DNA of 64,000 nucleotides from Nocardiopsis sp. CC223A (lineage in GTDB: Bacteria; Actinomycetota; Actinomycetes; Streptosporangiales; Streptosporangiaceae). Positions 8,554 to 24,239 of this stretch are shown one piece after another. The translations under genes were made by a program, and so were the position numbers. The notes under the pieces were generated by a model, which had not been told where the DNA came from, searched no databases, and was given only the letters and a program-made list of their open reading frames with translations. Within the stretch, counting starts at the first letter, position 1. Each line of letters begins with the position of its first letter. The DNA lies in assembly GCF_030766825.1 (NCBI RefSeq), contig NZ_JASFDV010000022.1, forward strand, positions 1 through 64,000. Direction: 5' to 3'.

Positions 8554-9645
8554 TCAGCGGACGGATCCGGCGCGCGCCTGCCCGGCGGGCAGCATGCCGT
8601 GGGTCCGGTACCAGGCGCCCATGGCGGTGACCGTCTCGGCGACGGGACGGAACTCCACGCCCAGTTCACGGCGGGCCAGGTCGGAGCTGATGTTGCGCGC
8701 GTCCCCCTCGCGCAGTACCCGAACGCCCTCGCGGGTGGCCGTGGGCTCCCCGCCGCGGATGCGGGCGCTGAGCTCCATGAGGGTCGCGGCCGCGGTGGCC
8801 AGGCCGGCGGGGACCGACCGGGGCGCCCGGACACCGGTCTCCGCCGCGACGGTGTCGGTCAGTGCGGGCAGCGACCGCTTCTCCCCGGCCACCACGTAGC
8901 GGTCGGCGGTGCCCACGCGGGCCGCGGCGACGCAGGCGTAGGCGACGTCGCGGGCGTCCACCACGTAGTTGCGCAGGCGCGGGATGGCCCGGACCCGCCC
9001 CTTGGCCACGTCGAGGAAGAGGCGGCCCGCGGAGGTCGGGCCGGCGTCGCCCGGACCCCACATCCAACCGGGCAGCACCGTGGCGACCCGGGTGGTGCCG
9101 GTCTTGCCGGAGCGGACCATGGCGGCGACCGCCCGGTCGGCGCGCACCTTGCTGGTGGGGTAGGTGTCCGACACCGCGGGCCGCGCGTACTTCTCCGGGG
9201 GCGGGGTGCTCTCGTCGGCGGGGCGCTCGGGCCCGCGCAGGGCCATGGTGTTGATGGACCCGGTGTGCAGGAACACGGGGACCCCGGAGGTGGCGGACGC
9301 GCTCAGGACCTGCTCGGTACCCTGCACGTTGATCCTCTCCAGGGGCCCGGTGCGGGTGGGGTCCTGGAAGTACTCGCGGAAGTAGGCGGCGGTGTGGAAG
9401 ACCTCGTCGATCCCGGTCAGGTGGCCCCGGTAGGTGGCCGGCTCGGTGACGTCGCCGCGGACCAGGTGCAGGCGGGGGTCGTCGGGCAGCAGGCGGCGCG
9501 CCCGCTCCAGGTCCCGGACCAGCGCGACCACCTCCTGGTCCAGGCCGAGGAGGAGTCGGACGATGTTGCCGCCCAGCAGGCCGGTGGCCCCGGTCACCAG
9601 GGAGCGGTCCCGCTTCGGAAGTCGTGGCGTTTCCGTGTCCGCCAT
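8554..9645 (-). CDS. NAD(P)-dependent epimerase/dehydratase family protein (extended SDR)
   Basis: A 363-residue cytosolic extended short-chain dehydrogenase of the dihydroflavonol-reductase/3-beta-HSD type. Visible are the Rossmann motif GATGLLGG near residue 20, the segment VRGDVTEP, and the catalytic YPTSK (YxxxK). The C-terminal part defines the substrate, which cannot be inferred. ATG at 9645 is used. It is divergent from a MarR gene across 69 bp containing an AT-rich imperfect palindrome, so MarR control is likely. It marks the left edge of the accessory stretch after the fadAB pair. Confidence 0.86.
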   Translation of the reverse strand: MADTETPRLPKRDRSLVTGATGLLGGNIVRLLLGLDQEVVALVRDLERARRLLPDDPRLHLVRGDVTEPATYRGHLTGIDEVFHTAAYFREYFQDPTRTGPLERINVQGTEQVLSASATSGVPVFLHTGSINTMALRGPERPADESTPPPEKYARPAVSDTYPTSKVRADRAVAAMVRSGKTGTTRVATVLPGWMWGPGDAGPTSAGRLFLDVAKGRVRAIPRLRNYVVDARDVAYACVAAARVGTADRYVVAGEKRSLPALTDTVAAETGVRAPRSVPAGLATAAATLMELSARIRGGEPTATREGVRVLREGDARNISSDLARRELGVEFRPVAETVTAMGAWYRTHGMLPAGQARAGSVR

Positions 9646-9661
9646 GATGTCACATCCCAAC

Positions 9662-9681
9662 TATCATGTATGCAGATAATA
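9662..9681. promoter_or_regulatory. Imperfect palindrome in the SDR/MarR divergent promoter
   Basis: TATCATGTATGCAGATAATA is an imperfect 20-bp palindrome (outer bases TAT-AT-T and complements pair) in the AT-rich gap between the divergent SDR and marR genes. Size and place suit a MarR dimer operator; binding is inferred. Confidence 0.45.
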
Positions 9682-9714
9682 TTTTCGGCTTATGAATTTC
9701 TAAGGCGGTCCGGT

Positions 9715-10176
9715 ATGGAGAACGCGTCGGGTTGGGGGACACCCCTGTGGCACACGACCGGCTACCGACTGATCAAGTTGGGCGAACTGGTCCAGGCCGT
9801 CACCCTCGACATCTTCGGACCGCAGGAGATCACGGCCCGCCAGTTCCACGTGCTGGCCGCGGCGGAGGAGATGTCCGACCCCTCCCAGAAGGAACTGAGC
9901 CGGGCCCTGGGGGTGGACCCCAACGTGATGGTCGGCCTCATCGACGATCTGGAATCCCGCGGGCTGGCCGAACGCAAGCGCAACCCGAAGGACCGCAGGC
10001 GCTACATCGTGACGCCCACCCCCGAGTCCGCCCTGCTGCTACAGAAGGCCCGTGAGGCGGTGTCCACCGCCGAGGAGGAGTTCTTCGCCCCCCTCTCGCA
10101 GGAGGAGCGCACGGTCCTGCACGCACTCTCGGGGCGGCTGCTGGACTCCCACCCCCGGGTCACCAAACACGAGTGA
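9715..10176 (+). CDS. MarR family transcriptional regulator
   Basis: A 153-residue dimeric winged-helix regulator. The recognition region reads TARQFHVLAAAEE, QKELSRALGVDPNVMVGLIDDLESRGLAERKRNPKDRRRYIVTPT, in which the wing motif DRRRY is typical of MarR. The ATG at 9715 is the first clear start after the palindrome at 9662-9681. It is divergent from the SDR gene, its most likely target. No ligand can be predicted. It ends in a hairpin shared with the convergent MMPL gene. Confidence 0.9.
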   Translation: MENASGWGTPLWHTTGYRLIKLGELVQAVTLDIFGPQEITARQFHVLAAAEEMSDPSQKELSRALGVDPNVMVGLIDDLESRGLAERKRNPKDRRRYIVTPTPESALLLQKAREAVSTAEEEFFAPLSQEERTVLHALSGRLLDSHPRVTKHE

Positions 10177-10220: not shown

Positions 10221-12449
10221 CTACTCCGAGATGCCGAACCGGGCGTGCAGCCTCTTGAGCGGCGCGGGCGCCCACCAGTTGGCGTCGCCCGCCAGGCGCA
10301 TGAACACCGGCACCAGCACCCCGCGGATCAGCGTGGCGTCCACGATGATCACCACCGCCATCCCGATCGCCAGCATCATCAGGTAGAGCACGTCGGACAC
10401 CGCGTAGGTGGCGAACGACGCGGCCAGGATGACCGCCGCCGCCGTGACCAGCGGACCGCTGCGCTGTAGCCCGGCCGCGACCGCGCGGGTGTTGTCCCCG
10501 GTCAGGTCGTACTCCTCCTTGATCCGGGACATCATGAACACCTCGTAGTCCATGGAGAGCCCGAACGCGATGCAGAACATCAGGATCGGGAAGGTCGTCT
10601 CCAGGGTCCCGTTGGCGGTGAACCCGAGCAGCCCGGACAGGTTGCCCTCCTGGAAGATCCAGACCATCACGCCGAACATCACCGCGAGGCTGAGCACGTT
10701 GAGCACGATCGCCTTGGCCGGCAGCAGCAGGCTCCCGGTCATGAGGAACAGCAGGACGAACGTGATGGCCAGGATGAGCCCGAACACCAGGGGCACCTGT
10801 CCCAGCAGCGCCGCACGGAAGTCGGCGAGGTCGGCCGGGTAGCCGCCGATCTCGGCGGCGGCCGGTGCGGGCACGTCCCGGATGCGCTCGATCAGGTCGG
10901 CGCCGTCGGAGATCGCCTCGGTCTCGGGCACCACGGAGAACCATGTGGCCTCGGCCGAACCGAACCGTTCCTGAGCGCCCGGCTCGGCGTCCGCCACCTG
11001 CTGCCCGTCCACGTACCGCCCGGTGAGGGCGTCCACCTGGTAGACGCCCTCCACCCGGGACAGCTCGGCCGCGTAGTCGCTCGCGGACGCGCCCTCGGCC
11101 TCGGCGGCCGGCAGGTCGACGATCACCTGGACCGCGTCCATCTCCTCCTGGGCGAACCCGGTCTCGATCTGGTCCTGCACGTCGCGGCTGGAGTTGCCCT
11201 GGGGCAGCACCCGGGCGTCGGGCAGGCCGAAGTTCAGCCCCAGGGCCGGGGCGGCCAGCACCAGGACGACGATCAGGGCGGGCAGTCCCCACAGCACGGG
11301 GCGGCGCATCATCCGCAGGGCGGTGTCGTGCCACCAGCCGCGGTCGGGGTCGGGCTCGCGCTTGGGCCGGACCCGGTGCCCGATCTTGGCCAGCGCCGCG
11401 GGCAGGATGACCAGGGAGGCGAACACCGAGGTCACCACCGTGCCCATGCCGGAGTAGGCGAAGGACTGTAGGAACGGGAACGGGAAGAGCATCAGGCACG
11501 ACAGCGCGACGGCGACGGTCAGGCCGCTGAACGCGACGGTGCGCCCGGCCTTGGCGACCGCGGTCGCGACGGCGTCGGGGACCTCCCGGCCGCGGGCCAG
11601 CTCCTCCCGGAACCGGTTGATGATGAAGAGGCTGTAGTCGACGCCCAGGCCCACGCCCATGACCAGGGTGAGGTTGGCGGCGAAGGTGGACACGTCGGTG
11701 ATGTAGGTGACCCCGCGCAGCAGGGCCAGCGTGGTGATCACCGAGAACAGGCCCATGCCCAGGGTGAGCGCGGCCACCGAGAACCGCCGGTAGATGACGA
11801 ACAGCAGCACGAACACCAGCGGGAAGATGATCGCCTCGGCGAGCAGGAAGTCCGCCTGGGCCTGTTGGGCGGCCTGGCGGAAGATCTCGTCGCCGCCGCC
11901 GACCTCCACCCGCAGGATGTCGTCCTCACGGGTGAAGTCCGGGGAGATCTCGCCCAGCGCGGTGCGGGCCTCGGTGACGCTCCCCTCCATGCGCACGGTG
12001 ATGAGCGCCTGGGAGCCGTCCTCGGAGCGCATCGCCGGGGAGTCGCCGCGGCCCCAGTAGGAGGCGGTCTCGGCGACGCCCTCCCGGGCGGCCAGTTCGT
12101 CCTCCAGGGCGGTGGCGGCCTCGACCACGGCCGGGTCGTCCACGTCGCCGTCCTGGGCGGTCACCAGGAGCAGGAAGTGGTGCTTGCCGGTGCCGAAACC
12201 CTCCTCCAGACGCTGTTCCACCAGTGCCGACTCCGAGCCCGGGCTCTCGAAGCGGCTCAGCAGCAGCCGGTCCATCGTGCCCGCGGCCAGGAACACCCCC
12301 AGCAACGTCAGGACGATCGCCAGGATGATGACCCGGCCCGGGCGACGGGCCAGGCCCTCCCCCAGGCGGGCCAGCAGGGGCGGGCGCTCCGGCGGGCCGC
12401 CGGTGCCGCCGGCGCCCGGGGGTGAGGCGGTGGTCGATGAGGTTGCCAT
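10221..12449 (-). CDS. MMPL family RND transporter (second of the operon)
   Basis: A 742-residue inner-membrane transporter of the MMPL branch of the RND superfamily, likely exporting a lipid or hydrophobic metabolite with proton motive force. There are two homologous halves, each with one membrane span, a large extracytoplasmic domain and five further spans. Marker segments are LVMGVGLGVDYSLFIINRFREE in half one and FCIAFGLSMDYEVFMMSRIKEE in half two (the Asp-Tyr proton relay region). ATG at 12449 follows GGAAGGCGAGAG. It starts 20 bp after the upstream hydrolase, so it is the last gene of a four-gene operon beginning at 17134. Substrate unknown. Confidence 0.92.
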   Translation of the reverse strand: MATSSTTASPPGAGGTGGPPERPPLLARLGEGLARRPGRVIILAIVLTLLGVFLAAGTMDRLLLSRFESPGSESALVEQRLEEGFGTGKHHFLLLVTAQDGDVDDPAVVEAATALEDELAAREGVAETASYWGRGDSPAMRSEDGSQALITVRMEGSVTEARTALGEISPDFTREDDILRVEVGGGDEIFRQAAQQAQADFLLAEAIIFPLVFVLLFVIYRRFSVAALTLGMGLFSVITTLALLRGVTYITDVSTFAANLTLVMGVGLGVDYSLFIINRFREELARGREVPDAVATAVAKAGRTVAFSGLTVAVALSCLMLFPFPFLQSFAYSGMGTVVTSVFASLVILPAALAKIGHRVRPKREPDPDRGWWHDTALRMMRRPVLWGLPALIVVLVLAAPALGLNFGLPDARVLPQGNSSRDVQDQIETGFAQEEMDAVQVIVDLPAAEAEGASASDYAAELSRVEGVYQVDALTGRYVDGQQVADAEPGAQERFGSAEATWFSVVPETEAISDGADLIERIRDVPAPAAAEIGGYPADLADFRAALLGQVPLVFGLILAITFVLLFLMTGSLLLPAKAIVLNVLSLAVMFGVMVWIFQEGNLSGLLGFTANGTLETTFPILMFCIAFGLSMDYEVFMMSRIKEEYDLTGDNTRAVAAGLQRSGPLVTAAAVILAASFATYAVSDVLYLMMLAIGMAVVIIVDATLIRGVLVPVFMRLAGDANWWAPAPLKRLHARFGISE

Positions 12450-12469
12450 GGTGCTCTCGCCTTCCAGGG

Positions 12470-13645
12470 TCAGGACGTGGGGGCGTGCCGGTCCATCCAC
12501 TCGGCCGCCGTGTCGTACAGGAGTTCCGCGCCGGCGTCGATGGTGACGAAGTGCCCGGCGTCGGTGAGGGTCGTCTCGGTGACCTCGGGGCTGGAGGTGA
12601 ACAGACCCGGGTAGCCCTCGACCCCCTGGCGCAGCACGTCGTGGGCGCCGAAGACCAGGTGGACGGGGACGTCGATCTCACCGATCAGGTCGAGGTCGTA
12701 GAGGATCGCCATGGGCTCGGAGACCATGACCCCGCACGGGTTGCGGCCCCACAGCCCTTCGATCTGGGCGACGACGGCCGGGTCGGCGTGCGGGCCGAGC
12801 CCGCCCTCGGTGAAGTCCTCCAGGGTGGGGTCGAAGTACACGTAGCCGCGGGGGTCGCCCGGGGACTCGTGCTCCTCGCCGCCCTCCAGGCAGGTGCGGT
12901 AGGCGGTGAGGAACCGGCGGTTGGTGTCGTCGGTGATGCCGACGGCGGCCCAGCCGGTGAGCAGCAGCCCGTCCACGCCGCCGAAGGAGACCGCCACGCT
13001 CTCGGCGACCAGGGCGCCGCTGGAGTGGCCGCCCAGGACGACGGTGTCGAAGGACACCGGGTCCTCGCCCTCGACCTCGTAGTCGCCCGCGCGCAGCTGT
13101 TCGACCACTTGGTGGGCGATGTCGGCGTGGGCGCCGCTACAGCTGGCGAACCCCTCGGGGATGTCGCTGGAGCCGTAGCCGAGGCGGTCGATGGTGACCG
13201 AGGCGTGCCCGCGTGCGGCGAGTTCGTTGACGTAGTTGCGGCCCTCGACGTCCAGGCGCCAGATCCATTCGCCGGTGTTGGTGCCGTGGACGAGCAGGGC
13301 GACGGCGGGCGCGTCGGCGGACAGGGCCGCTTCGGGGGCGGTCAGGTGTCCCCGGACCGTGTACTCCTCGCCGTCGGCGGAGCACTGGCCGCGGGTGCGG
13401 TTGACGTTGTCGACGGTGAACTCGACGGCCAGGTCCACGACGCCGGGCGGGGTCACGGCCGGTTCGCGGGGGGTCTCGGGGGCGGCCGGGGCCGCGGCGG
13501 CGGGTGCCGCGGCCGCGGGTGCGGCGGTGTGCTCCGCGGCGGCCGCGCTCGTGGCCACCGCGGCGGTGAGCAGGAGGGAGGCCGCCAGGGCCGCGGCGCG
13601 CAGGCGGCGGGACGGGCGGCGCGGGGGCGCTCCGGTGGTGTTCAC
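12470..13645 (-). CDS. Secreted alpha/beta hydrolase (active-site triad intact)
   Basis: A 391-residue exported alpha/beta hydrolase. The N-terminus (RRLRAAALAASLLLTAAVATSAAAA) is a signal peptide, followed by an Ala/Pro-rich linker. The fold shows LLVHGTNTG (oxyanion region, about 118), the nucleophile elbow GGHSSGAL with Ser208, an acid near Asp336 (FGAHDVL) and His365 (DAGHF). Several Cys residues suggest disulfides. The GTG start overlaps the upstream paralog's stop by 4 bp (GTGA), so the two are translationally coupled; an MMPL gene follows 20 bp later. It probably acts outside the cell on an ester or lipid linked to the flanking exporters, but this is inference. Confidence 0.87.
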   Translation of the reverse strand: MNTTGAPPRRPSRRLRAAALAASLLLTAAVATSAAAAEHTAAPAAAAPAAAAPAAPETPREPAVTPPGVVDLAVEFTVDNVNRTRGQCSADGEEYTVRGHLTAPEAALSADAPAVALLVHGTNTGEWIWRLDVEGRNYVNELAARGHASVTIDRLGYGSSDIPEGFASCSGAHADIAHQVVEQLRAGDYEVEGEDPVSFDTVVLGGHSSGALVAESVAVSFGGVDGLLLTGWAAVGITDDTNRRFLTAYRTCLEGGEEHESPGDPRGYVYFDPTLEDFTEGGLGPHADPAVVAQIEGLWGRNPCGVMVSEPMAILYDLDLIGEIDVPVHLVFGAHDVLRQGVEGYPGLFTSSPEVTETTLTDAGHFVTIDAGAELLYDTAAEWMDRHAPTS

Positions 13646-14820
13646 CGCTGTTCCTCCAGCCAGTCGGCCAGGGCCGTGCGCAGTTCGGCCGCCCCGGGTT
13701 CGAGGACGAGGTAGTGGCCCGCGTCGGCCACGGTGACGGTCTCGGTGTCGGATGCCCCGGTGAAGAGCCCGACGTGGTCGGCGCCGTCGGACACGCGCGT
13801 GTCGGCGTCGGCGAAGGCGAACAGCACGGGCACCTCGATGCGGTGGAGGTTGCGGGTGTCGGTGGCCAGCGCCTCGACCTGGGTGCCCAGGTCGCCGCAG
13901 GGCGTGCGGGACTGGAGGTCGGCGGCCAGGGCGGCGACCGGGGTCGCGGGGTCGCTGAAGTTGGCCCGGGTGTAGGAGGTGCGGCCGACGTCCACGTAGG
14001 TGTATCCGGCCGCGTCCGCACCGTCCGGGTCGGGCGGTCCGGCCTCGGCGTCGGCGGGCACGCCGCCCTGCATGCAGGAGGCCAGGCCGCCGAAGAAGCG
14101 GGCGTTGGCGCGGTCGGTCACCCCGGTGCCGCTCCAGCCCAGGAGGGCCAGGGCGTCGGGGGCCGCCGGGCCGTCGAACGAGTAGGCGGTGATCTGCGCG
14201 ATCTGGGCGCCGCTGTGGTGCCCGGCCAGGACGACGGTGTCGAAGGCGGGGGGCTCGTCGGGCCCCGGGCCGGTGGCGCCGCCCTCCCCCAGGGTGTAGT
14301 CGCCCGTGCGGACCTGCTCGATGACCTGCGCGGTCATGTCGGCCTGCGAGCCCAGGCACATGGCCAGGCCGTCGGGCCGCTCCCCGCCGTAGCCGAGCCG
14401 GTCCAGGGTCAGGGAGACGCCGCCCAGCAGCGCCATCTCCTCGGTGTGGTGGTATCCGGGCTCGTCCAGCCGCCAGAACCACTCCCCCGCCGCCTGTCCG
14501 TGCTGGTAGACGGTGACGGCGGGGTCGTCCTGCTCCAGTGCCTCGGCGGGGCCGGTGAGGTGTCCCCGGAGGGTGTACTCCTCGCCGTCGCTGTTGCAGG
14601 GCAGCCGCGAGTCGTTGCGGTTGACGACGGTGAAGCTCACCGGGACGTCGACGATGCCCGCGTCGGCCATGCGCTCGGCGGTGGCCTGCGCCCGCTCCCG
14701 GGCGGTGGGCTCGGGTGCGGCGGCCGGCCCGTCCTCTCCCGAGGGGAGCAGGACCAGCGCGGCGGCGACCGACGCGGCGACCGCGCCCACGGCGATCAGG
14801 GTGTTCCTAGTCCCGGGCAC
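13642..14820 (-). CDS. Membrane-anchored or secreted alpha/beta hydrolase paralog with altered nucleophile
   Basis: A 392-residue paralog of the next gene (shared SDGEEYTxRGHLT, GEWxWRLD, LDRLGYG and DTVVLxGHxSGA). Residues 7-26 form a signal anchor or signal peptide. Where the paralog has GHSSG, this protein has GHHSG: the nucleophile Ser is His202, with a Ser one place later. The His of the triad (DAGHY) and an Asp-rich segment (ADADTRVSD) remain. It may therefore be inactive, or use a shifted Ser. The GTG at 14820 follows GGAGGTGGCCC and overlaps the MMPL stop by 14 bp; an ATG at 14856 is less likely. Part of the MMPL-hydrolase-hydrolase-MMPL operon. Confidence 0.85.
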   Translation of the reverse strand: MPGTRNTLIAVGAVAASVAAALVLLPSGEDGPAAAPEPTARERAQATAERMADAGIVDVPVSFTVVNRNDSRLPCNSDGEEYTLRGHLTGPAEALEQDDPAVTVYQHGQAAGEWFWRLDEPGYHHTEEMALLGGVSLTLDRLGYGGERPDGLAMCLGSQADMTAQVIEQVRTGDYTLGEGGATGPGPDEPPAFDTVVLAGHHSGAQIAQITAYSFDGPAAPDALALLGWSGTGVTDRANARFFGGLASCMQGGVPADAEAGPPDPDGADAAGYTYVDVGRTSYTRANFSDPATPVAALAADLQSRTPCGDLGTQVEALATDTRNLHRIEVPVLFAFADADTRVSDGADHVGLFTGASDTETVTVADAGHYLVLEPGAAELRTALADWLEEQR

Positions 14821-17134
14821 GGGCCACCTCCGCGGTCTCTCGGGCGGGTTCGGCACCGTGTCCGGGTACCGGGGTCCGCGCGGGCTCCTCGGGAGTCCGC
14901 GGGTCAGCGGGGGCGCGGCCGGGTTCGGCGGCGTTCTCGCCCAGGGTGGCGTCGAAGATCCGGTGGAGCCGGCGCAGCGGTCCGGGCGCCCACCAGGTGG
15001 CGCGGCCGGTCATGCGCAGGACCGAGGGCACCAGGAGGCAGCGCACGACGGTCGCGTCGGCGATGACGGCCAGGGCCACGCCCCAGCCGAGCATCATCGT
15101 GTTGGTCACCCGGGAGGCGCCGATGACGATGAGGACGACCGCCAGGGCGACCGCGGCGGCGGTGATGATGCCGCCGGTGCGCCGGAGCCCGAGTTCGACG
15201 GCCGTGCGGTGGTCGCCGGTGCGGTCGTACTCCTCGCGCATCCGGGACAGCAGGAAGACCCCGTAGTCCATGGACAGTCCGAAGGCGATGCAGAACATGA
15301 GCACCGGCAGGGCCGTGTCGATGAACCCCGTCGGGGTGAACCCGAGCAGTCCGGAGAGGTTGCCGTCCTGGAACACCCAGACGACGGCTCCGAACATGGC
15401 GGTCAGGCTGAGCGCGTTGAACAGCACCGACAGCAGGGGCAGGAGAACGCTTCCGGTGAGCAGGTAGACCAGGACCAGCATGCCGACGACGACCACGGCC
15501 AGGGTGGCCGGGACGCGCTCGGCGATGGCCGCCTGGGCGTCCACGACCGCGGCGGCCTGGCCGGTGACCGAGACCTCCAGGGACGTGTCGACCGCGCGGA
15601 TGTCGCGGACCAGGTTCTGGCTCTCCAGGGAGATGTCCTCGACCTCCGCGTCCGGGACGACCTGGATGTAGGCCAGGTCCTCGGACTCGCGCAGGGCGTC
15701 CACGGGGGTGCGCTCGCGCAGGTGGGCGCCGTCGATGTGGACGCCCAGCGGGGAGCGGACCTCCGCGACGTGGTCCAGGCGCGAGAGGGCGGCGGCGTAG
15801 TCGTCCAGCAGTCCGGTGTCGGTGTCCTGCGGGGCCTGGTGGACGAGCACGTCGACGGCGCCGGTGGCGGTGGAGCCGAAGTCCGTGCGGATGGTGTCCA
15901 TGACCTCGCGCGACTCGACCCCGGCGGGCAGTTGGCGGTCGTCGGCCATGCCGAACTCCACCCGCAGGAAGGGCAGCCCGACCGCGATCAGCAGGGCCAG
16001 GGCGATCAGGGCGAACACCGGTGCCCGCCCCATGACCGCCCGGGTCAGCCGGCCCCAGCGCCGGTCGGCGGCCTCCTCCGGGGAGAGGGCCGAGCCCCGG
16101 CGCAGCAGGCGGCGGGGGTCCAGCGCGTTGACGCGCGGGCCCAGCAGGGTGAGCACGGCCGGCAGGACGACCAGGGAGGTCAGGGCGGCCAGCAGCACCA
16201 CGGTCACGCCGGAGTAGGCGAAGGAGCGCAGGAAGTACAGGGGGAAGAACAGCATCGCGGCCAGGGCGGCCGAGATGGCCAGGGCGGAGAAGACGACGGT
16301 GCGCCCCGCGGTGCGGACGGTGGTGAGCGTGGCCTGCGCCGGCGGGGCGCCGGTCGCGAGTTCGGCCCGGAAGCGGCGGACCATGAGCAGGGCGTAGTCG
16401 ATGGACAGGCCCAGGCCGAGCGCGATGGTGAGGTTCTGAGCGAAGACCGATACGTCGGTGAATCCGGCGATCGCCCACAGCACCGCGTTGGTGCCGATGA
16501 TGGACACCACCCCGACCAGCAGGGGCAGGGACGCCGAGACGACGCTGCCGTAGACCCACACGAGGATGAGCAGCGTCAGGGGCAGGGCGATCATCTCCGA
16601 GCGGACCAGGTCCTCGGCGATGGTGGTCTCGATGTCGTTGAGGACGGCGGTCTGTCCGCCGACGCCGACGGTGAGGGGCCCGTGGTCGCCGCCGTAGCGT
16701 TCGGCGAGGTCGGCCACGGCCGCGCCCGCCTCGGCCTCGGTGCCGGACACGTGCGCGGCGATGAGCGCGCGGGTGCCGTCGTCGGACTTCAGTTCCTCGG
16801 AGCCGGTCTGCCAGTAGGAGGTGACCCCGGCGACACCGTCCTCGTAGGCCAGCCCCTCGGCCAGGCCCAGGGCGCGGGCGGCGGCCTCGCGGTCGTCCAC
16901 CCCGGCCTCGGCGGTCACCAGGAGGATCAGGTTGGGCCGGCTGTCGGGGAAGTGCTCCTCCAGGATCTCGGCGGCCCGGGCCGATTCCGAGGAGGGGTCC
17001 TCGGTGCCCTGGCCCGCCCGGAGGCGGTCGGCGACACCGGAGCCCAGGACCACCGCGCCGATCACGGCGAGGAGTGCGGTCGCCAGGACCCACCAGGGCC
17101 TGCGCGTGGTGAGCCGGGTCAGTGCGTCGAGCAT
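14807..17134 (-). CDS. MMPL family RND transporter (first of the operon)
   Basis: A 775-residue MMPL/RND inner-membrane exporter with two repeated halves. The first span starts at WWVLATALLAVIGAVVL; half one carries TIALGLGLSIDYALLMVRRF and half two FCIAFGLSMDYGVFLLSRMREE. Extracytoplasmic domains lie between spans 1-2 and 7-8. The C-terminus ends in a charged Pro/Glu-rich cytosolic tail (about the last 45 residues). ATG at 17134. It leads a four-gene operon with two hydrolases and a second MMPL gene. The upstream 144-bp gap has its own promoter-like sequence, so it need not depend on readthrough from the FAD monooxygenase gene. Substrate unknown. Confidence 0.92.
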   Translation of the reverse strand: MLDALTRLTTRRPWWVLATALLAVIGAVVLGSGVADRLRAGQGTEDPSSESARAAEILEEHFPDSRPNLILLVTAEAGVDDREAAARALGLAEGLAYEDGVAGVTSYWQTGSEELKSDDGTRALIAAHVSGTEAEAGAAVADLAERYGGDHGPLTVGVGGQTAVLNDIETTIAEDLVRSEMIALPLTLLILVWVYGSVVSASLPLLVGVVSIIGTNAVLWAIAGFTDVSVFAQNLTIALGLGLSIDYALLMVRRFRAELATGAPPAQATLTTVRTAGRTVVFSALAISAALAAMLFFPLYFLRSFAYSGVTVVLLAALTSLVVLPAVLTLLGPRVNALDPRRLLRRGSALSPEEAADRRWGRLTRAVMGRAPVFALIALALLIAVGLPFLRVEFGMADDRQLPAGVESREVMDTIRTDFGSTATGAVDVLVHQAPQDTDTGLLDDYAAALSRLDHVAEVRSPLGVHIDGAHLRERTPVDALRESEDLAYIQVVPDAEVEDISLESQNLVRDIRAVDTSLEVSVTGQAAAVVDAQAAIAERVPATLAVVVVGMLVLVYLLTGSVLLPLLSVLFNALSLTAMFGAVVWVFQDGNLSGLLGFTPTGFIDTALPVLMFCIAFGLSMDYGVFLLSRMREEYDRTGDHRTAVELGLRRTGGIITAAAVALAVVLIVIGASRVTNTMMLGWGVALAVIADATVVRCLLVPSVLRMTGRATWWAPGPLRRLHRIFDATLGENAAEPGRAPADPRTPEEPARTPVPGHGAEPARETAEVARARD

Positions 17135-17220
17135 CGTGTCACCCCCGTTCGTCGTTCGCGGGCGGAACCGCCGATGGCGACCGGAGTCCTCCGGCCGCCA
17201 TCACGGGTGCCGTCGCCGCC

Positions 17221-17257
17221 ACAGTACTGTATAAACATGCGACGATCATCAACCTAA
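17221..17257 (-). promoter_or_regulatory. Probable promoter/operator of the MMPL-hydrolase operon
   Basis: On the minus strand TTAGGT and TATACA are separated by 18 bp, an acceptable -35/-10 pair. The spacer holds CGATCATC in plus-strand sense (17243-17250), the same 8-mer found in the afsA/SARP gap. A perfect 10-bp palindrome ACAGTACTGT (17221-17230) overlaps the -10 and start region. Regulation here is inferred. Confidence 0.45.
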
Positions 17258-17278
17258 ACGATAGGATTCACATATCAT

Positions 17279-18907
17279 TTACCTGAGGGACCGCTCGGCA
17301 CCGGGCAGTAGGACCCCGCCCAGGAACACCCCCGGCCGCCAGTGCGCGTCCAGGGGGGCGACCGAGGAGACGACCGCGTCCGGTCGGACGTGGATCACCC
17401 ACCCGGCCCCGTCCCTGGCGCCCTCGGTGAGGCGGGCGACGTCGTGGTCGCCCTCCGGTTCCGCCGACGCGGTGGTGAGCAGCAGCACGTCCACGTCGTC
17501 GGGGACCTGCTCGCGAAGCCCGGCCGCCGCCTCCCGGACGCGCTCCGCGGGACCGCCGCCCACCAGCAGCGTGTGCCGCCCGGAGGCGAGGTACGCGTGC
17601 AGGCTCCGGGCGTCGGTGCCCCGGAGCGGGGACAGCGGGGCGTCGCCGATGCGCCGCCCGGGCAGGGCGCCGCCCACCGCGTCGCGGGCCCGCCATCCGG
17701 CAGGGGGCGCCGTGACGGCGGGGCTCTCCGACAGGTCCGGGGAGATCTGCGCCAGCTGCGGCACCAGACGCTTCTCCAGCAGCCCCGAGGCCGACAGGGT
17801 GCGCATCAGGGTGTCGCGCACCAGCCGGGCCAGCGGAGCCCGCACCATCCAGGTGCGGGTCTGCTGGTCGGCGCTGCGCACCACCGCCTTGGCGGTGGGG
17901 CGGCGCTCCAGCGGATAGCTGTCCAGCAGCTCCTCCGGCGCGCCCCGCAGTACCGTGGCGAGCTTCCAGGCCAGGTCGAACCCGTCCTGGATGCCCGTGT
18001 TGAGGCCCTGGCCGCCGGCCGGGCTGTGCAGGTGGGCGGCGTCCCCGGCGATGAGGACCCGGCCGCGGCGGAACTCGCGGGCCACCCGGGCGTGCACCCG
18101 GAAGCGGCTGCGCCACCACACGGTGTCCACGCGCAGGCCCCGCGGACCGCGTTCGGCCAGCAGACGGGCGATCAACGCGTCGTCGGGCGGGGCGGTCTCC
18201 CCGTCCGGGGCGATGTCGAAGAACACCCGGTGCCCGCCGCCGGGCAGCGGCACCACCACGAGCACCCCGTCGGGGGTCAGGTGGTACTGGGCCTCCCTGT
18301 CCGGGGTCGGGCCGCTCACGACACCGTCCGCCAGCAGGAACACCCGGTCGTAGGTGTCGCCCTCGAAGGCCACTCCCAGGGACTCGCGGACGGTGCTGCG
18401 GCTGCCGTCGGCGGCCACCACCCAGGGGACGGTGACCTCCTCCGCGGCCTCCGGGTCGCCCTCGGGGCCCAGGGCGACCCGGACCCCGCCCTCGACGGGC
18501 TCCACCGCGTGGACCCGGGTGGACCACTCGACGGAGCCGCCCAGGGCGAGCAGGCGGTCGTACAGGGCCTGCTCCACTCCGGGCTGGGGCAGGCAGATCG
18601 GGCCGGGGAAGGCCGTGTCGCGCAGTCCGCCGAAGCGGACCCCGCCGATGCGCCTGCCGGCGGAGAAGTAGGACGCCGACTCCAGCGGCAGGGAGCGGTC
18701 GACCACCTCCCGGTCCACACCCAGGCGGCGCAGGACCTCCAGGGCCCCGCTCCACAGGATGAGGGCCTTGGGCTCCTCGGCCACCCCCGCCCGGCGCTCG
18801 ACCACGCGGCACGGCACACCGTTCTGCATCAGGGTGCAGGCGGCGGCCAGCCCCGTGGGGCCGGCGCCGACCACGAGCACCGGGGGGTGCGGATCGGGAG
18901 TGCTCAC
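17279..18907 (-). CDS. FAD-dependent monooxygenase (PheA/TfdB, aromatic-hydroxylase type)
   Basis: A 542-residue group A flavoprotein monooxygenase. It has the FAD-binding GxGxxG (VVGAGPTGLAAACTL, about 11), the DG motif (AADGSRSTVRESLG, near 170) and the GD motif (VLIAGDAAHLHSPAGGQGLNTGIQD, near 290). A C-terminal thioredoxin-like domain follows, as in polyketide-tailoring hydroxylases. The GTG start overlaps the HAD gene stop by 4 bp, which is itself coupled to the AfsA-type gene. Its likely substrate is therefore the product of that pathway. From memory, mmf furan loci of Streptomyces also pair an AfsA homolog with a flavin-type oxidoreductase and a HAD protein; whether the flavoproteins are the same family needs checking. 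Confidence 0.88.
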   Translation of the reverse strand: MSTPDPHPPVLVVGAGPTGLAAACTLMQNGVPCRVVERRAGVAEEPKALILWSGALEVLRRLGVDREVVDRSLPLESASYFSAGRRIGGVRFGGLRDTAFPGPICLPQPGVEQALYDRLLALGGSVEWSTRVHAVEPVEGGVRVALGPEGDPEAAEEVTVPWVVAADGSRSTVRESLGVAFEGDTYDRVFLLADGVVSGPTPDREAQYHLTPDGVLVVVPLPGGGHRVFFDIAPDGETAPPDDALIARLLAERGPRGLRVDTVWWRSRFRVHARVAREFRRGRVLIAGDAAHLHSPAGGQGLNTGIQDGFDLAWKLATVLRGAPEELLDSYPLERRPTAKAVVRSADQQTRTWMVRAPLARLVRDTLMRTLSASGLLEKRLVPQLAQISPDLSESPAVTAPPAGWRARDAVGGALPGRRIGDAPLSPLRGTDARSLHAYLASGRHTLLVGGGPAERVREAAAGLREQVPDDVDVLLLTTASAEPEGDHDVARLTEGARDGAGWVIHVRPDAVVSSVAPLDAHWRPGVFLGGVLLPGAERSLR

Positions 18908-19572
18908 CGCGCCCCCTCGGCCTTCGACGGAGCGCCCGAGACCTTCAGGACCGAGGTGATCTCCTCGACCGCCTGCGCGTTGTTCTGGAAGCGGACGGTC
19001 GCCATGCCCAGCTCCGCCGCGGGCTTGAGGTTGTCCTCCAGGTCGTCCACGAACAGGCACCGGTCCGGGGTCAGGCCCAGCCGGGCCAGGAGGCGCTCGT
19101 AGATCTCGGTGTCGGGCTTGCGCACGCCCTCGTGCGCGGAGTTCACCACGACCTCGAACAGTTCGTCGGCGGGCACGGTGGCCCGCCACAGGCTCTCCCA
19201 CTCCACGACGTTGTTGGTGAGCAGGGCCAGCCGGTAACCGTCCATGCTCAGGCCGCGCAGGAAGTCGGCGAACTCGTGGTTGCCGGTGCGTCCGGCGAAC
19301 CACAGCTCGCCGAAGGTGCGGTCCTCGGGCAAGGCCCATCCCCCCTCGGGCAGTTCGGCGGTGATGGAGGCGACCATCTCCGCCTCGGTGATGGCCCCGA
19401 TCTCCAGCAGCGCCATGGGATCGGCGCCGACCTTGGCCGCGGCGGCGCCCATCGCCGTGAGAATGGCGTCGGCGGTCAGGTCGACCGTGCGCGCGAAGTG
19501 CTCCAAGGTCTCGTGGAGCGGGTTGGTGAGCACGCCGCCGTAGTCGCACACGACGGCCTCGATGCGGTTCAC
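18904..19572 (-). CDS. HAD-superfamily hydrolase, candidate signal-precursor phosphatase
   Basis: A 222-residue cytosolic HAD protein. Motif I is VVCDYGGVLTNP (nucleophile Asp10), motif II LLTNN, motif III Lys in VRKPDTEIYERLL, motif IV CLFVDDLEDN. The position two after Asp10, usually the general acid Asp in phosphatases, is Gly12; some phosphatases (YihX type) share this, so activity is uncertain. The GTG at 19572 overlaps the AfsA-type stop by 4 bp and is preferred to a GTG at 19578. Coupling to a butenolide-phosphate-forming synthase suggests it removes the phosphate left from dihydroxyacetone phosphate. That role is inferred from context. Confidence 0.85.
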   Translation of the reverse strand: MNRIEAVVCDYGGVLTNPLHETLEHFARTVDLTADAILTAMGAAAAKVGADPMALLEIGAITEAEMVASITAELPEGGWALPEDRTFGELWFAGRTGNHEFADFLRGLSMDGYRLALLTNNVVEWESLWRATVPADELFEVVVNSAHEGVRKPDTEIYERLLARLGLTPDRCLFVDDLEDNLKPAAELGMATVRFQNNAQAVEEITSVLKVSGAPSKAEGAR

Positions 19573-20606
19573 ACCCACTGGGCCACCTCGATCCGGAACG
19601 AGCTGTTGGTGGTGCCCTGCTGGTTGACGCGGACGTCCACGCCGACGACCGGGCCGAACCGCTCGTCGGAGCGGAAGGGGGCCAGGTCGGCCTCCACCGT
19701 GGTGGGCAGGTCGTTCTCGCAGAAGGACGAGAAGGACGCGTCCACCGACACCGGGACCAGGGTCACCGGGTCCAGGCCCGCGGAGCGGGCCACGGCGGCC
19801 ACCGCCACCTGGCGGGCGGCCTCGATGAGGAGGTTGCCGGGCAGGTGGTCCAGCGGGTGGTCGAACAGGTGCGGGTGGTCGTGGTCGGGGACCACGGTGG
19901 CCCGCCAGCCCTCGTCCCCGCGCTGGACCGGGTCGGTGATGACGACGTTGCGCGGGTCGCGGCGGCCCACCACGGCGGGCGAGGCCGGGATCGCGCGGGG
20001 CGCGGCCGCGTCGCTCCAGTCCAGGGCGTCCCGGCCCTTGGTGCGCAGCGCCTGGTACGCGGGGCGGCCCAGGAAGATGAGCGCCCCGGTGGCCTTGGCG
20101 ACCTCGGTGCCGTTGATGAAGACGTCACCGCGGAAGTCGTAGCCGCGCAGCTTGCCCGCCTGGTTGCGGTACAGGTCCGCGTCGGTGCGGATCAGCGCGC
20201 GGCCGGGCTCGGGCCCCTGGCGCAGGCCGTCCAGGTCGCTGATGTGCAGGGACATGCGGTGCATGATGAACGCCCGGTCCAGGGGGACGTCCAGGTGCCG
20301 GTGTGAGATGAGCACCCCGGTCTGCCGGCAGGCCTCCAGGATCAGCGGGAGGTCGTAGGTGGGCGTCTCCAGCATGACGTGCCCGCGGGGCAGCTGGGCG
20401 GCGACGTCGAACGTGTTCTCGCCGGTCTGCCTGGAGTCGGTGACGAACACCTCCGAGACGGCGTTGCGGTGGACCAGCCCCCGGGGGACGGTCGCGTCGT
20501 AGTCGAGCTCCCTGGTCTCCCCGAAGTCGGGGTCCAGGTGGGCCAGGTCCCGGTCGTCGGTGTCGGCCGTCGCGGTGGCCTGCGGCCCGGTGGTCGTGCG
20601 GTTCAT
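19569..20606 (-). CDS. AfsA-type gamma-butyrolactone/butenolide synthase
   Basis: A 345-residue double hot-dog protein of the AfsA/ScbA family, which joins a 3-ketoacyl thioester to dihydroxyacetone phosphate to start synthesis of actinomycete autoregulators. The first AfsA repeat begins near LVHRNAVSEVFVTDSRQTG. The second contains DPVQRGDEGWRATVVPDHDH and the hallmark DHPLDHLPGNLLIEAARQ. The ATG at 20606 follows AAAGGGAAGAC. It heads a three-gene operon with 4-bp overlaps (HAD protein, FAD monooxygenase), unlike simple scbA/barX loci. It is divergent from a SARP gene across 558 bp. The family is clear; whether the product is a butyrolactone, butenolide or furan cannot be told. Confidence 0.93.
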   Translation of the reverse strand: MNRTTTGPQATATADTDDRDLAHLDPDFGETRELDYDATVPRGLVHRNAVSEVFVTDSRQTGENTFDVAAQLPRGHVMLETPTYDLPLILEACRQTGVLISHRHLDVPLDRAFIMHRMSLHISDLDGLRQGPEPGRALIRTDADLYRNQAGKLRGYDFRGDVFINGTEVAKATGALIFLGRPAYQALRTKGRDALDWSDAAAPRAIPASPAVVGRRDPRNVVITDPVQRGDEGWRATVVPDHDHPHLFDHPLDHLPGNLLIEAARQVAVAAVARSAGLDPVTLVPVSVDASFSSFCENDLPTTVEADLAPFRSDERFGPVVGVDVRVNQQGTTNSSFRIEVAQWV

Positions 20607-20860
20607 GTCTTCCCTTTCGTTCACATCCCCCTCGACGGGTGTTCCGCGGAGAGGACACGGACTTCGGAACGGTGAGGAGGGCGACCCCCGTAACGGAGGC
20701 GGACGGGGAACGGTCCGCCTCCGCCACGGAACCGAGTATTCGGAGGCGACCTGAAGACGACCTGGAGCGCGACCTGAAGGCCCAGCGTGAAAAAAACTCA
20801 CTTCTGACTCCGCGCAAGGCTTCCACGTGGGGGAATGAACGCTCAATTGATCATTCACAC

Positions 20861-20886
20861 CGATCATCTGCTTTTTGTGATGATCG
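20861..20886. promoter_or_regulatory. Inverted repeat CGATCATC-N10-GATGATCG
   Basis: Perfect 8-bp arms separated by 10 bp, with a further GATCAT 13 bp upstream at 20849. The same 8-mer occurs at 17243 before the MMPL operon. Position between afsA-type and SARP genes suggests a shared regulator site; inferred. Confidence 0.45.
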
Positions 20887-21010
20887 ACACAGGAGATGAC
20901 TTCGGGACCTGTGGCCCACGGTCCCGCCTGCGAAGGCCCGCACCTTGATGGCACAGGGAGATTTATCCATTACTTACAGGCACTGGTCACGTGCTTATGA
21001 TCGGCTCACC

Positions 21011-21027
21011 GCATACCGACGGTGTGC
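21011..21027. promoter_or_regulatory. ARE-like palindrome
   Basis: GCATACCG-A-CGGTGTGC pairs at 7 of 8 positions. The ACC-N-CGGT core recalls autoregulatory elements bound by ArpA-type butyrolactone receptors. It lies about 140 bp before the SARP start. The resemblance is by eye only. Confidence 0.4.
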
Positions 21028-21164
21028 ACAAGCCGTCGCAGAGCGGTACTCCGGACCGATTCGGAGCAAGGCCTCCGCCACCGATGCCGGAGAGCACCGC
21101 ACGGGATCGGAGTGCACGAGAAGCTGGAGACGGGTAACGCAAGAATCGCCGGAAGGGCTCCGGA

Positions 21165-21971
21165 ATGATCAGAACCACGCAGGCGGCACCGACGACCATT
21201 TCCGTCCTGGGGGAGCTGGAGGTCGTCGGAGAGCACGGTCCCCTGCCCCTGGGCGCCCCCCGACAACGCGCCGTGTTCGCGGCACTCACGCTCAACGCCG
21301 AGCGCGCCGTGACCACGCAGCGCATCATCACGATGGTGTGGGGTCCGAGCCACCCGACCCACGCCGTCAACCTGGTCCACAAGTACGTTTCCGGGCTGCG
21401 CCGTGCGCTCTCCGCCCTGCCCCCGCACAGGAGCGTCACCATCGAGAGCGGTCCCTCGGGTTACCGGCTCGTGCCCCCGGCCGGTCAGATGGACCTGCTC
21501 CTGTTCCAGACCTGGATCCAGACCGCACGCGCGATGCGCGACAGCGGTGAGGAGGTGGGGGCCGCCGACCTGTTCGGCCGCGCCCTGGCCCTGTGGCGGG
21601 GCCCCTTCCTGGGCGAGCTGTCCGGACCCGCGTTCGACGACGAGCGGGAGTTCATGGAGACCGTCCGCCTGGTGGTGCTGGAGGAGTACGCCGCCGTCGG
21701 CCTCCGGACCGGTCGCCGGGCCGAGGTGCTGGAACCGCTGCGCGACGCACTGCGGCACCACCCGCTGGAGGAGAACCTGGCCCGGCTCCTCATCCTGGCC
21801 CTGTACGAGGAGGGCCGCACGGCCGAGGCGGTCCGCGTGTACCAGATGCTGGCCACACGGATGCTGGGGGAGCTCAACGTTCCGCCCCGCCCCGAACTGC
21901 ACGACCTCTACCAGGCCATCCGCCGCCACCAGCCGCTCTCCGGCGCACGGCGGTTGCAGAACACCCCCTGA
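21165..21971 (+). CDS. SARP family transcriptional activator
   Basis: A 268-residue Streptomyces antibiotic regulatory protein. It has an N-terminal OmpR-type winged helix (about 10-100: LGELEVVGEHGPLPLGAPRQRAVFAALTL through VTIESGPSGYRLV) and a bacterial transcriptional activation domain (about 110-255: MDLLLFQTWIQTARAM, EENLARLLILALYEEGRTAEAVRVYQ). This is the small AfsR/DnrI/RedD form with no ATPase. ATG at 21165 with GGAAGG upstream. It is divergent from the AfsA-type operon, so it is the probable output regulator of that signal and may activate the nearby operons; targets are not proven. It ends in a 16-bp-stem hairpin. Confidence 0.93.
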   Translation: MIRTTQAAPTTISVLGELEVVGEHGPLPLGAPRQRAVFAALTLNAERAVTTQRIITMVWGPSHPTHAVNLVHKYVSGLRRALSALPPHRSVTIESGPSGYRLVPPAGQMDLLLFQTWIQTARAMRDSGEEVGAADLFGRALALWRGPFLGELSGPAFDDEREFMETVRLVVLEEYAAVGLRTGRRAEVLEPLRDALRHHPLEENLARLLILALYEEGRTAEAVRVYQMLATRMLGELNVPPRPELHDLYQAIRRHQPLSGARRLQNTP

Positions 21972-21982
21972 TCCGCCCACGG

Positions 21983-22021
21983 CCGGGGCCGCCGGGAGAC
22001 CTCTCCTCCCGGCGGCCCCGG
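21983..22021. terminator. Bidirectional hairpin between SARP and MMPL genes
   Basis: A 16-bp perfect stem (CCGGGGCCGCCGGGAG and complement) with a 7-nt loop, 11 bp after the SARP stop and 7 bp from the convergent MMPL stop. Confidence 0.75.
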
Positions 22022-22028
22022 TCCCGAC

Positions 22029-24239
22029 TCAGACCCCCGCGGGCACGCGCTCGCTCCCGGCCTGCGCCGGGGCCGCGGGCTCCTCGCCGCCGCCCTCGGA
22101 GATGCCGATGCGGTCGTGCAGCCACCGCAGCGGCCGGGGCAGCCACCAGTTCACCCCGCCCAGCAGGCGCATCGCGGCCGGGACCATGATCGCGCGGACC
22201 AGGGTGGCGTCCACGAACACCGCGATCGCCAGGCCGATGCCGATGATCTTCAGGAACAGCAGGCCCGAGGTGCCCATCGCCAGGAGCACCACCACGAGCA
22301 GGACCGCCGCGCTGGTGATGATCCGACCCGTGTGCTGGAGCCCCGCCGCCACCGAGCGGGTGTTGTCCCCGGTGCGCAGGAACTCCTCGCGGACCCGGCT
22401 GAGCAGGAACAACTCGTAGTCCATGGCCAGACCGAACGCCACGATGGTGATGAGCACCAGGTAGGTGGGGTCGATCGTGCCGACCGGCTCGAACCCGAGC
22501 AGCCCGGCGAAGGCGCCCTCCTGGAAGCCCCAGACCACCACTCCCAGCGAGGCGCCCAGGGACAGCGCGCCCATGAGGATCGCCTTGAGGGGCAGGACGA
22601 CCGAGCCGAAGGCCAGGAAGAGCAGGAACAGGGTGGCGCCCGCGATGAACGCGACGGTGACCGGGGCCGCCTCCACGATCGCGGCCACGTTGTCCTGCTG
22701 CATCGCCGCGACACCCCCCACCAGGGTCTCCTGCGCCCCCGCCGGGGCGGGCTCGGCGCGCACGTCGGCGACCAGGCCCTTGACCTCGTCGGAGTCGGTC
22801 GCGCCCTGGTAGGCGACCAGGACGTGGGCGACGCCCTCGCCGGTGCGCTCCACCCGGGCCAGGGAGACCTCCGGCAGGTCCTCCAGACGTTCGACGTACT
22901 CGTCCAGCGCCTCGTCGGAGGGGTCGCCGGCCACCGCCACGTGCAGGCGGCCCAGGCCGCCCGCCGGGAAGTCCTCGGCGACCGACTCGGTGGCGATCCG
23001 GCTGCCCGCCTCCTCGGGCAGGTAGCGCTGGTCCGTGGTGCCCAGGTGGGTGGCGGCCAGGCCCGAACTGAAGACCACCAGGACGCTGAGGACCGCGACC
23101 AGCGCCACCGCCGGGCCGCGCATCACGGTGCGGGCCAGCCGTGTCCAGCCGCCCTCCTGGAGGGTCCCGGTGACGGTGCGGCGGGGCAGCGGCAGTCGGA
23201 GCCGGTCGATGCGCCGGCCCACCACCGACAGCAGCGCCGGGAGGAACACCAGGGCGGCCAGCAGGTCGAACAGGACCACGGCGATGCCGCCGAAGCCGAT
23301 GGACTTCAGGATCGGCTGGGGGAAGAAGAGCAGGCCGGCGAAGGCGATGCCGACGGTGACCCCGGAGAAGGCGACCGTACGTCCCGCGGTGTCGACGGTG
23401 CGGCCGACCGCGGCGGCCACCCCCCGGCCCCGGTCCAGCTCCTCGCGGAACCGGCTCACCATGAACAGGCCGTAGTCGATGGCCAGCCCCAGGCCCAGGA
23501 TGGTGGCGACGTTGACCGCGAACACCGAGACGTCGGTGACGTGGGTGAGGGCGCGCAGCACCGTGAGGGAGCCCAGGATGGCCAGGCCGCCCACCGCCAG
23601 GGGGACCACGCCCGCGATGAGGCCGCCGAAGATCAGCACCAGCAGGAACAGCAACAGGGGCATGGTGATGAGCTCGGCGCGGACGATGTCGGACTCGGCG
23701 GTCTCGGAGAGCTCGTGCTCGACCGCGACGGGACCGCCCAGGTGGGTCTCCAGCGGGCCCGACTCCAGGTGTTCGGCGGCGGCCTCGTACCGGTCCAGGC
23801 GGTCGGTGTGGCCCTCCCCGGTGAGGGTGACGGGGATGTAGGTCGCGTGCATGTCCTCGGAGACGAGCATGCCGCGTTCGATGTCGGAGAGGTCCTCGTC
23901 GAGGTAGACGTCGAAGTCGGCGACGACGTCCGCGGGCATGCCGTCGGCGATGCGCTGGACGGCCGCGGCGAAGGTGGGGTTGTCGACCTTCATCTCGTCG
24001 CTGCGGTAGACGGCGACGATGTCGATGTCGTCGTGGCCCAGCTCGCCCTCGATGAGGTCCATGGCCTGGGAGGACTCTGCGCCGGGGTCCTCGAAACCGC
24101 TTTCGCTGACGTCGGAGAAGACACCCGAGCCCCAGACCGCGGCGAAGACGGCGAAGAGCGCGGTGGCGACCAGCACCGCCCACCGGAAGCGGTGGGCGCC
24201 GAGCCCGAGACGACCGAAAAGCCCCGTGTGCGTTGGCAT
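22029..24239 (-). CDS. MMPL family RND transporter (TetR-linked)
   Basis: A 736-residue MMPL exporter with the usual two-half architecture. Half one has ATILGLGLAIDYGLFMVSRFREE and half two TIVAFGLAMDYELFLLSRVREE. The first span is FRWAVLVATALFAVFAAVWGS. The ATG at 24239 follows GAAAGGG at good spacing; an upstream in-frame ATG at 24257 is less likely. It is divergent from a TetR gene with a palindrome in the 117-bp gap, the standard layout of a repressor controlling its exporter. It is not obviously a recent copy of the two MMPL proteins at 10-17 kb. Substrate unknown. Confidence 0.92.
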   Translation of the reverse strand: MPTHTGLFGRLGLGAHRFRWAVLVATALFAVFAAVWGSGVFSDVSESGFEDPGAESSQAMDLIEGELGHDDIDIVAVYRSDEMKVDNPTFAAAVQRIADGMPADVVADFDVYLDEDLSDIERGMLVSEDMHATYIPVTLTGEGHTDRLDRYEAAAEHLESGPLETHLGGPVAVEHELSETAESDIVRAELITMPLLLFLLVLIFGGLIAGVVPLAVGGLAILGSLTVLRALTHVTDVSVFAVNVATILGLGLAIDYGLFMVSRFREELDRGRGVAAAVGRTVDTAGRTVAFSGVTVGIAFAGLLFFPQPILKSIGFGGIAVVLFDLLAALVFLPALLSVVGRRIDRLRLPLPRRTVTGTLQEGGWTRLARTVMRGPAVALVAVLSVLVVFSSGLAATHLGTTDQRYLPEEAGSRIATESVAEDFPAGGLGRLHVAVAGDPSDEALDEYVERLEDLPEVSLARVERTGEGVAHVLVAYQGATDSDEVKGLVADVRAEPAPAGAQETLVGGVAAMQQDNVAAIVEAAPVTVAFIAGATLFLLFLAFGSVVLPLKAILMGALSLGASLGVVVWGFQEGAFAGLLGFEPVGTIDPTYLVLITIVAFGLAMDYELFLLSRVREEFLRTGDNTRSVAAGLQHTGRIITSAAVLLVVVLLAMGTSGLLFLKIIGIGLAIAVFVDATLVRAIMVPAAMRLLGGVNWWLPRPLRWLHDRIGISEGGGEEPAAPAQAGSERVPAGV

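Follow-up and report, generated by a model that had tools for sequence, protein, structure and literature searches.

The 64,000-base stretch of DNA analysed here, hereafter the window, comprises bases 1-64000 of contig 22 of the 6.9 Mb genome of Nocardiopsis sp. CC223A (194 contigs) and carries a small biosynthetic locus built around an AfsA/ScbA-type (phosphorylated butenolide) synthase. Three genes stand together on the minus strand: the synthase of 345 amino acids (19569..20606), a HAD-IA hydrolase that is a probable butenolide-phosphate phosphatase (18904..19578, with its GTG start at 19578 or 19572), and a class A flavin adenine dinucleotide (FAD) monooxygenase of 542 amino acids (17279..18907). 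A SARP activator of 268 amino acids is read divergently from them on the plus strand (21165..21971; PF03704, BTAD, and PF00486, Trans_reg_C). A sequence-only reading of this DNA had taken the three genes as one unit facing the SARP gene, and this is confirmed by the Pfam and NCBIfam assignments and by a gene order kept in eight of eight relatives. The trio is part of a larger cassette, which also holds an MMPL exporter (MMPL1) and two secreted alpha/beta-hydrolases, together with a further MMPL gene (MMPL3), a MarR-family gene and a short-chain dehydrogenase/reductase (SDR) gene.

The AfsA, HAD and FAD proteins

The synthase scores 216.9 bits against the NCBIfam model NF041195, whose curated cut-off is 200, and its two PF03756 stretches represent two AfsA hotdog domains. 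Each half carries an ExxRQ motif (E91/R94 and E262/R265) that is invariant across nine orthologues. No solved relative was found by sequence up to E 1, and an AlphaFold model (mean predicted local distance difference test score 60.7) is too weak for a structure search, with an order of elements that would fit two hotdog domains. The hydrolase is above the cut-off of PF00702 (55.3 bits); TIGR02247, its nearest NCBIfam model, gives 111.6 bits, below the cut-off of 125.4. In 13 aligned HAD sequences the nucleophile Asp, the Lys and the DD pair are kept, as is the motif II Thr, which is Ser in three distant homologues. The monooxygenase matches PF01494 (E 7.5e-72) and has the GxGxxG, DG and GD motifs of class A flavin monooxygenases, all kept in 10 aligned sequences.

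The genes had been described as joined by 4-bp overlaps. This holds for the HAD/FAD junction ([AG]TGA in 9/9 orthologous loci). At the AfsA/HAD junction the overlap GTGA is present in six of nine loci; all nine have a GTG further upstream, and a start there would lengthen the overlap to 10 bp, so that the 4-bp figure is uncertain for this junction. No terminator-like site was found in 17000-22100, which we count in favour of the interpretation given below. In agreement with the sequence-only reading, no polyketide synthase (PKS) or nonribosomal peptide synthetase was found among the 46 window proteins scanned with Pfam, smaller open reading frames lying outside that scan.

Conservation and island borders in the genus

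Our genus sample consists of the Nocardiopsis genome and 39 others. An AfsA orthologue is present in eight of the 39 (61-96% identity), hence in 9/40 with the own genome, and the order SARP, AfsA, HAD, FAD, MMPL1, hydrolase 1, MMPL3 is kept in all eight, with hydrolase 2 present as well. Joint conservation of the trio had been named beforehand as a check, and every relative with the orthologue keeps the set. Named records in which the locus was confirmed (six, out of 33 matched stretches) are Nocardiopsis sp. N85, N. flavescens, N. alborubida, Nocardiopsis sp. FR4, Streptomonospora nanhaiensis and a record labelled Glycomyces fuscus.

The link between this HAD family and AfsA extends beyond the orthologous loci. 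At E<=1e-20 there are 16 HAD places in the 40 genomes, nine of them trio orthologues; 13 lie within 200 bp and 15 within 12 kb of an AfsA match. The exception is a HAD match in G034 with no AfsA match in the surrounding 20 kb, and two weak matches among the 16 carry one stop each. Matches to the monooxygenase (E<=1e-80) occur at 15 places, 14 of them within 7.6 kb of an AfsA match; the remaining one (G019) sits close to one end of a contig of 7.7 kb, so its neighbourhood cannot be judged. The concern that the HAD and FAD genes might belong to an unrelated pathway is not borne out, and the proposal that the position of the HAD protein suits a phosphatase acting on the AfsA product is supported.

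The trio is missing from 31 genus genomes, and the insertion place was fetched in 11 of these. In all 11 it is flanked by g6371 (window 6371-8455) and MMPL2 (22029), and at E<=1e-15 none of AfsA, HAD, FAD, SARP or the two hydrolases was found between these flanks. Overlapping MMPL matches were labelled by best query only, and none received the label MMPL1; MMPL3 is present in 5/11 and the SDR in 1/11 (G031). Because the flanks are shared by all 11 genomes, MMPL2, the TetR gene at 24294, the zinc peptidase gene and the reductase gene at 26941 (found in 40/40 genus genomes) belong to the backbone, and the island extends from about 8.5 to 22.0 kb. MMPL2 and the TetR gene had been considered as cassette members and were rejected on the ground that both stand in all 11. 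G031 has MMPL3 and the SDR without the trio, with two open reading frames between MMPL2 and MMPL3 that look transposase-like by eye (L123), and its arrangement is possibly a remnant of the island. Within the genus the SDR is present in the own genome, the eight relatives and G031 only (10/40).

Copies outside the genus

In a family sample of 298 genomes from 68 genera, AfsA matches at E<=1e-45 occur in 17 genomes of three genera. A close AfsA (388.6 bits) was found in G148, a genome of another genus. The genes there encode a large SARP (821 amino acids with TPR), AfsA (52% identity), HAD (59%), FAD (56%), MMPL1, one hydrolase, MMPL3 and an SDR, the last two on the opposite side of the SARP gene. 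None of the backbone genes was found in the 34 kb read around this locus, so the set stands at a different chromosomal place. In a plasmid collection, pFiD188 of Rhodococcus fascians D188 was the top record for AfsA and HAD and the second for FAD. Its annotated order on one strand is MMPL, alpha/beta-hydrolase, ScbA/BarX, HAD phosphatase, MFS, FAD monooxygenase, aldo/keto reductase, and the identities are 41% (AfsA), 42% (HAD), 49% (FAD) and 42% (hydrolase 1). The likeness to the Nocardiopsis locus thus covers MMPL, alpha/beta-hydrolase, AfsA, HAD and FAD on one strand, with 41-49% identity for four proteins. Unlike the Nocardiopsis cassette, pFiD188 has an MFS gene inside the set and an aldo/keto reductase in place of the SDR, and no SARP was found in the 11 kb covered. 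Both cases argue for a functional bond between the genes and not for shared descent alone.

Other members of the cassette

Except for the MarR-family gene, the genes downstream of the trio are also on the minus strand. MMPL1 (14807..17134; PF03176) adjoins the monooxygenase gene in 8/8 relatives and in G148. Alpha/beta-hydrolase 1 (13642..14856, although the true start may be internal) has a hydrophobic N-terminal stretch and was assigned by identity and motif, with 43% identity to the G148 hydrolase besides the match in R. fascians. Its nucleophile Ser is replaced by His in all nine genus sequences (GHHSG or GHHNG), next to an intact tandem copy, and Ser is retained in the counterparts of R. 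fascians (GQSNG) and G148 (GHSNG). Hydrolase 1 may therefore be a conserved pseudo-hydrolase or have an unusual active site. The tandem copy is alpha/beta-hydrolase 2 (12470..13645; PF12697), with a signal-peptide-like N-terminus and a GHSSG nucleophile elbow, present in 8/8 relatives. MMPL3 (10221..12500; PF03176) follows. The MarR-family gene (9715..10176, start placed by eye; PF01047 on frame 9562-10173) lies on the plus strand between MMPL3 and the extended SDR of the NAD-dependent epimerase/dehydratase family (8554..9660, minus strand; PF01370). Far from the island, a serpin-family protein is encoded at window 62802-64000 (PF00079, E 5.3e-48).

The region between SARP and AfsA

Upstream of the AfsA gene we found a predicted SARP operator on the minus strand, three direct heptamers of the CTTCAGG type that are 12 and 11 bp apart (20750..20779). 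It is followed, 9 nt past the last heptamer, by a predicted -10 element of the AfsA operon, AATACT (20735..20740, minus strand), placed by alignment and script. The arrangement is conserved in 10/10 loci (nine from the genus and G148): three heptamers matching 19-20 of 21 positions, 11 or 12 bp apart, and [AG]ATACT at a spacing of 9 nt (10 in G148). The operator score was reached by 0/200 shuffles per locus. Since the consensus was built from these same loci, a consensus-free test is fairer, and here 0 to 6 of 200 shuffles reached the score (six in G016). According to PMC10936776, SARP targets consist of direct repeats with a spacing of 11 or 22 bp, and 8 bp separate the final repeat from the -10 element; the predicted operator is close to this rule.

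In the own genome, pairs of heptamers with at most two mismatches occur at 29 sites, below the 47 for a reversed control pattern, and a single mismatch is seen at the window site alone. A wider SARP regulon was accordingly rejected, there being no other good operator in the genome. The window alone holds six heptamer matches at <=3 mismatches, no excess over the shuffle mean of 3.8. The same intergenic region contains a TGTG-N8-CACA palindrome (20876..20891), kept in 9/9 genus loci and absent from G148, which is a possible CRP-like site. Before the SARP gene there is a promoter-like pair, CTTACA-17-TATGAT (20973..21001, plus strand; one found against a shuffle mean of 0.1), in which TATGATC is invariant in nine loci.

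Is there a receptor?

The sequence-only reading had noted that no ArpA-type receptor is present in the window, and this holds for the whole genome at the curated cut-off: the best match to the NCBIfam ScbR receptor model NF041196 reaches 72.9 bits against a cut-off of 150. A receptor elsewhere in the own genome was rejected at this cut-off. At E<=1e-35 none of the nine other genomes with the locus has a match to the model, versus 3/3 controls of another family. The regulators of the cassette are the SARP and the MarR protein, and at these thresholds MmfR/MmyR-type ArpA-like genes were not found in any of the 10 genomes. Nor did the searches find, at the same thresholds, the cognate ScbR/ArpA-type receptor of classical gamma-butyrolactone signalling, and the suggestion that the locus makes a new classical autoregulator is not supported.

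An autoregulator, be it a butyrolactone, butenolide or furan hormone, might still be sensed by a protein that is not of the ScbR/ArpA family, for instance the MarR protein at 9715 or a diverged TetR. AfsA enzymes with known function are mostly hormone makers, the MarR gene lies inside the island, and the ScbR model has 76 weak matches of TetR type in the own genome, one of them adjoining a second AfsA-domain locus (contig C10). We nevertheless consider this unlikely, given the receptor searches above and given that the TetR at 24294 is genus backbone. A dedicated exporter and secreted hydrolases are, moreover, unusual for diffusible hormones.

The second AfsA-domain protein of the own genome (L044, C10:86385-86780) has 258 amino acids, one scored PF03756 stretch, an Asp in place of the first ExxR Glu and an adjoining PF12710-type HAD gene. 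In the genus as a whole there are 15 other AfsA places, of which 14 were fetched; a FAD gene stands in 11 of the 14 and a HAD gene of either kind in 12. They include a second, larger type of cluster (L045-L051) with AfsA, PF12710-type HAD, MFS, KASIII, aldo/keto reductase, aldehyde dehydrogenase, AMP-binding-like genes and a FAD monooxygenase, where we take the aldehyde dehydrogenase and AMP-binding-like genes to be LuxC/LuxE-like. In the one type of these other loci scanned with Pfam, the neighbours are KASIII, aldehyde dehydrogenase, AMP-binding-like, aldo/keto reductase and cyclase genes; others have ketosynthases.

On plasmids, four HAD-bearing regions were examined: in two from Streptomyces AfsA lies beside HAD in ketosynthase-bearing clusters, and one each from Streptomyces and Embleya are without this pair. 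In the former two (L138, 6036-7660, and L139, 7938-9731) the clusters also contain KASIII, and AfsA is apparently a core biosynthetic enzyme. Both Streptomyces AfsA plasmid regions that were examined carry annotated ScbR-family receptors, and in one of them a FAD monooxygenase gene lies some 1.6 kb away from AfsA. Since receptor and flavoprotein occur together on this plasmid, a flavoprotein near AfsA is no mark of receptor-less loci.

Comparison with known systems

AfsA-phosphatase-oxidoreductase cassettes are already known, sabAPD and mmfLHP being the closest precedents. In Streptomyces ansochromogenes, sabAPD combines an AfsA-type enzyme, a phosphatase and a dehydrogenase, and in E. coli and Streptomyces these three sufficed for SAB butenolides (review PMC6930871). 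The Nocardiopsis island contains AfsA, HAD and an SDR, with some 10 kb between the SDR and AfsA, and may resemble sabAPD at the level of gene families. SAB is a hormone with the receptor SabR1 (PMC6930871), whereas no such receptor was found here, and the Nocardiopsis cassette adds a class A flavin monooxygenase, an MMPL pump and secreted hydrolases. The furan cassettes mmfLHP and ahfaLPH also place an AfsA homologue, a phosphatase or hydrolase and a flavin or oxidoreductase enzyme side by side. They differ in the size of the oxidoreductase, MmfH-type proteins having a published length of 378-384 amino acids against 542 for our flavoprotein, and, together with scl, in two TetR (ArpA-like) genes of which the Nocardiopsis cassette has none (PMC7037778, PMC6335953). 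The S. rochei genes srrX-srrP-srrG-srrO associate an AfsA homologue with phosphatase, dehydrogenase and oxygenase; there the oxygenase is a P450 and ArpA-type repressors are present (PMC7564063). In the gladiostatin system AfsA chemistry likewise serves a bioactive end product and putative phosphatases lie in the cluster (PMC7756379), but the phosphorylated butenolide synthase is a PKS domain there and a free enzyme without PKS in Nocardiopsis. No description of the present gene combination was found among the papers listed from the open-licence PMC literature, subscription papers being outside this search.

The phosphatase step had been called often unassigned. This is true in part: phosphatase partners are named for the SAB, SRB, AHFA and MMF pathways (SabP, SrrP, AhfaP and MmfP), and one review describes MmfP as without in vitro proof.

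Discussion

On the observed gene set, its overlaps and co-occurrence, the island borders and the conserved operator, we conclude that the locus is probably a self-contained cassette under SARP control, whose enzymes produce an oxidised butenolide, or something derived from it, for export. This compound is best read as an end product and not as an autoregulator of the classical type. The following chemistry is drawn from protein families and published relatives. AfsA would join dihydroxyacetone phosphate to a beta-ketoacyl thioester supplied by fatty acid synthesis, giving a phosphorylated 2-acyl-butenolide; a butenolide phosphate was demonstrated in vitro for the gladiostatin synthase domain, with alkaline phosphatase (PMC7756379). 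The HAD protein, as dedicated phosphatase, would remove the phosphate, the SDR may reduce the side-chain ketone, as could the aldo/keto reductase in R. fascians, and the flavin monooxygenase might add oxygen to the ring or enol of this presumed substrate. An MMPL pump would export the product, on which a secreted alpha/beta-hydrolase may act outside the cell. The SARP would switch on the AfsA operon through the three direct repeats. The roles of the monooxygenase, the SDR and the hydrolases are the least certain parts, and butenolide, butyrolactone and furan are not separated by the sequence.

Several findings weigh against this interpretation. The HAD motif I is not DxD: Gly replaces the second Asp in 13/13 aligned sequences, and the reaction may thus differ from plain phosphate hydrolysis. 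YihX, a named phosphatase among the PDB matches of the HAD protein, likewise lacks this Asp. Of the 394 genomes in a class sample, 24 have an AfsA match at E<=1e-40, and 19 of these are outside the genus; all 19 loci were fetched (stretches of 6.9-19.9 kb), and a HAD gene of either kind stands in six, a FAD gene in five and both in two, so the exact trio is rare outside the genus. In Nonomuraea gerenzanensis, the record listed first for the monooxygenase, the FAD, AfsA, HAD and MMPL genes are spread over 30 kb together with ketosynthases and a SARP. Finally, the membership of MMPL3 and of the SDR is weaker, as some genomes without the trio have MMPL3 and one of them the SDR too.

The monooxygenase might instead serve self-protection or detoxification, like rifampin monooxygenase, with no biosynthetic step. 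Rifampin monooxygenase is indeed among its best solved relatives in the PDB, yet a polyketide oxygenase/hydroxylase comes first, and the NCBIfam model rif_monoox gives 186.9 bits, far below its cut-off of 800. With its gene predicted to be cotranscribed between HAD and MMPL1 and staying with AfsA across genera, we regard such a role as improbable. Still less credible is a cell-envelope lipid, for which AfsA would acylate a phosphate of glycerol type, MMPL would flip the lipid and the hydrolase would trim it outside: the set does include secreted hydrolases and between one and three MMPL pumps, and the best NCBIfam match of the pumps is MmpL3, well below its cut-off, but SARP control and patchy presence (9/40 genus genomes) better fit a secondary metabolite.

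The end-product cassette agrees in part with what had been proposed from the sequence: the biosynthetic side is supported and extended, the autoregulator side is not supported. The larger cassette with MMPL, secreted hydrolases and SDR, the SARP-type operator and the recurrence outside the genus go beyond that proposal. As a tentative and rather less likely reading, a receptor-less AfsA branch with dedicated HAD and class A monooxygenase clades could be common to Nocardiopsis-type bacteria and the Rhodococcus plasmid, yielding an undescribed oxidised butenolide or furan that is exported by MMPL, finished by a secreted hydrolase and used as an end product, not a hormone.

The locus shows clearly that an AfsA synthase can occur with no ScbR/ArpA partner that is recognisable. 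For the AfsA product it offers candidates for both a dedicated phosphatase and an oxygenase, and its enzymes are few enough for transfer into E. coli or Streptomyces. Together with the aromatic-hydroxylase-type flavoprotein in 11/14 of the other genus AfsA loci (within the fetched stretches), it suggests that a blanket label of gamma-butyrolactone signal on AfsA loci can mislead.

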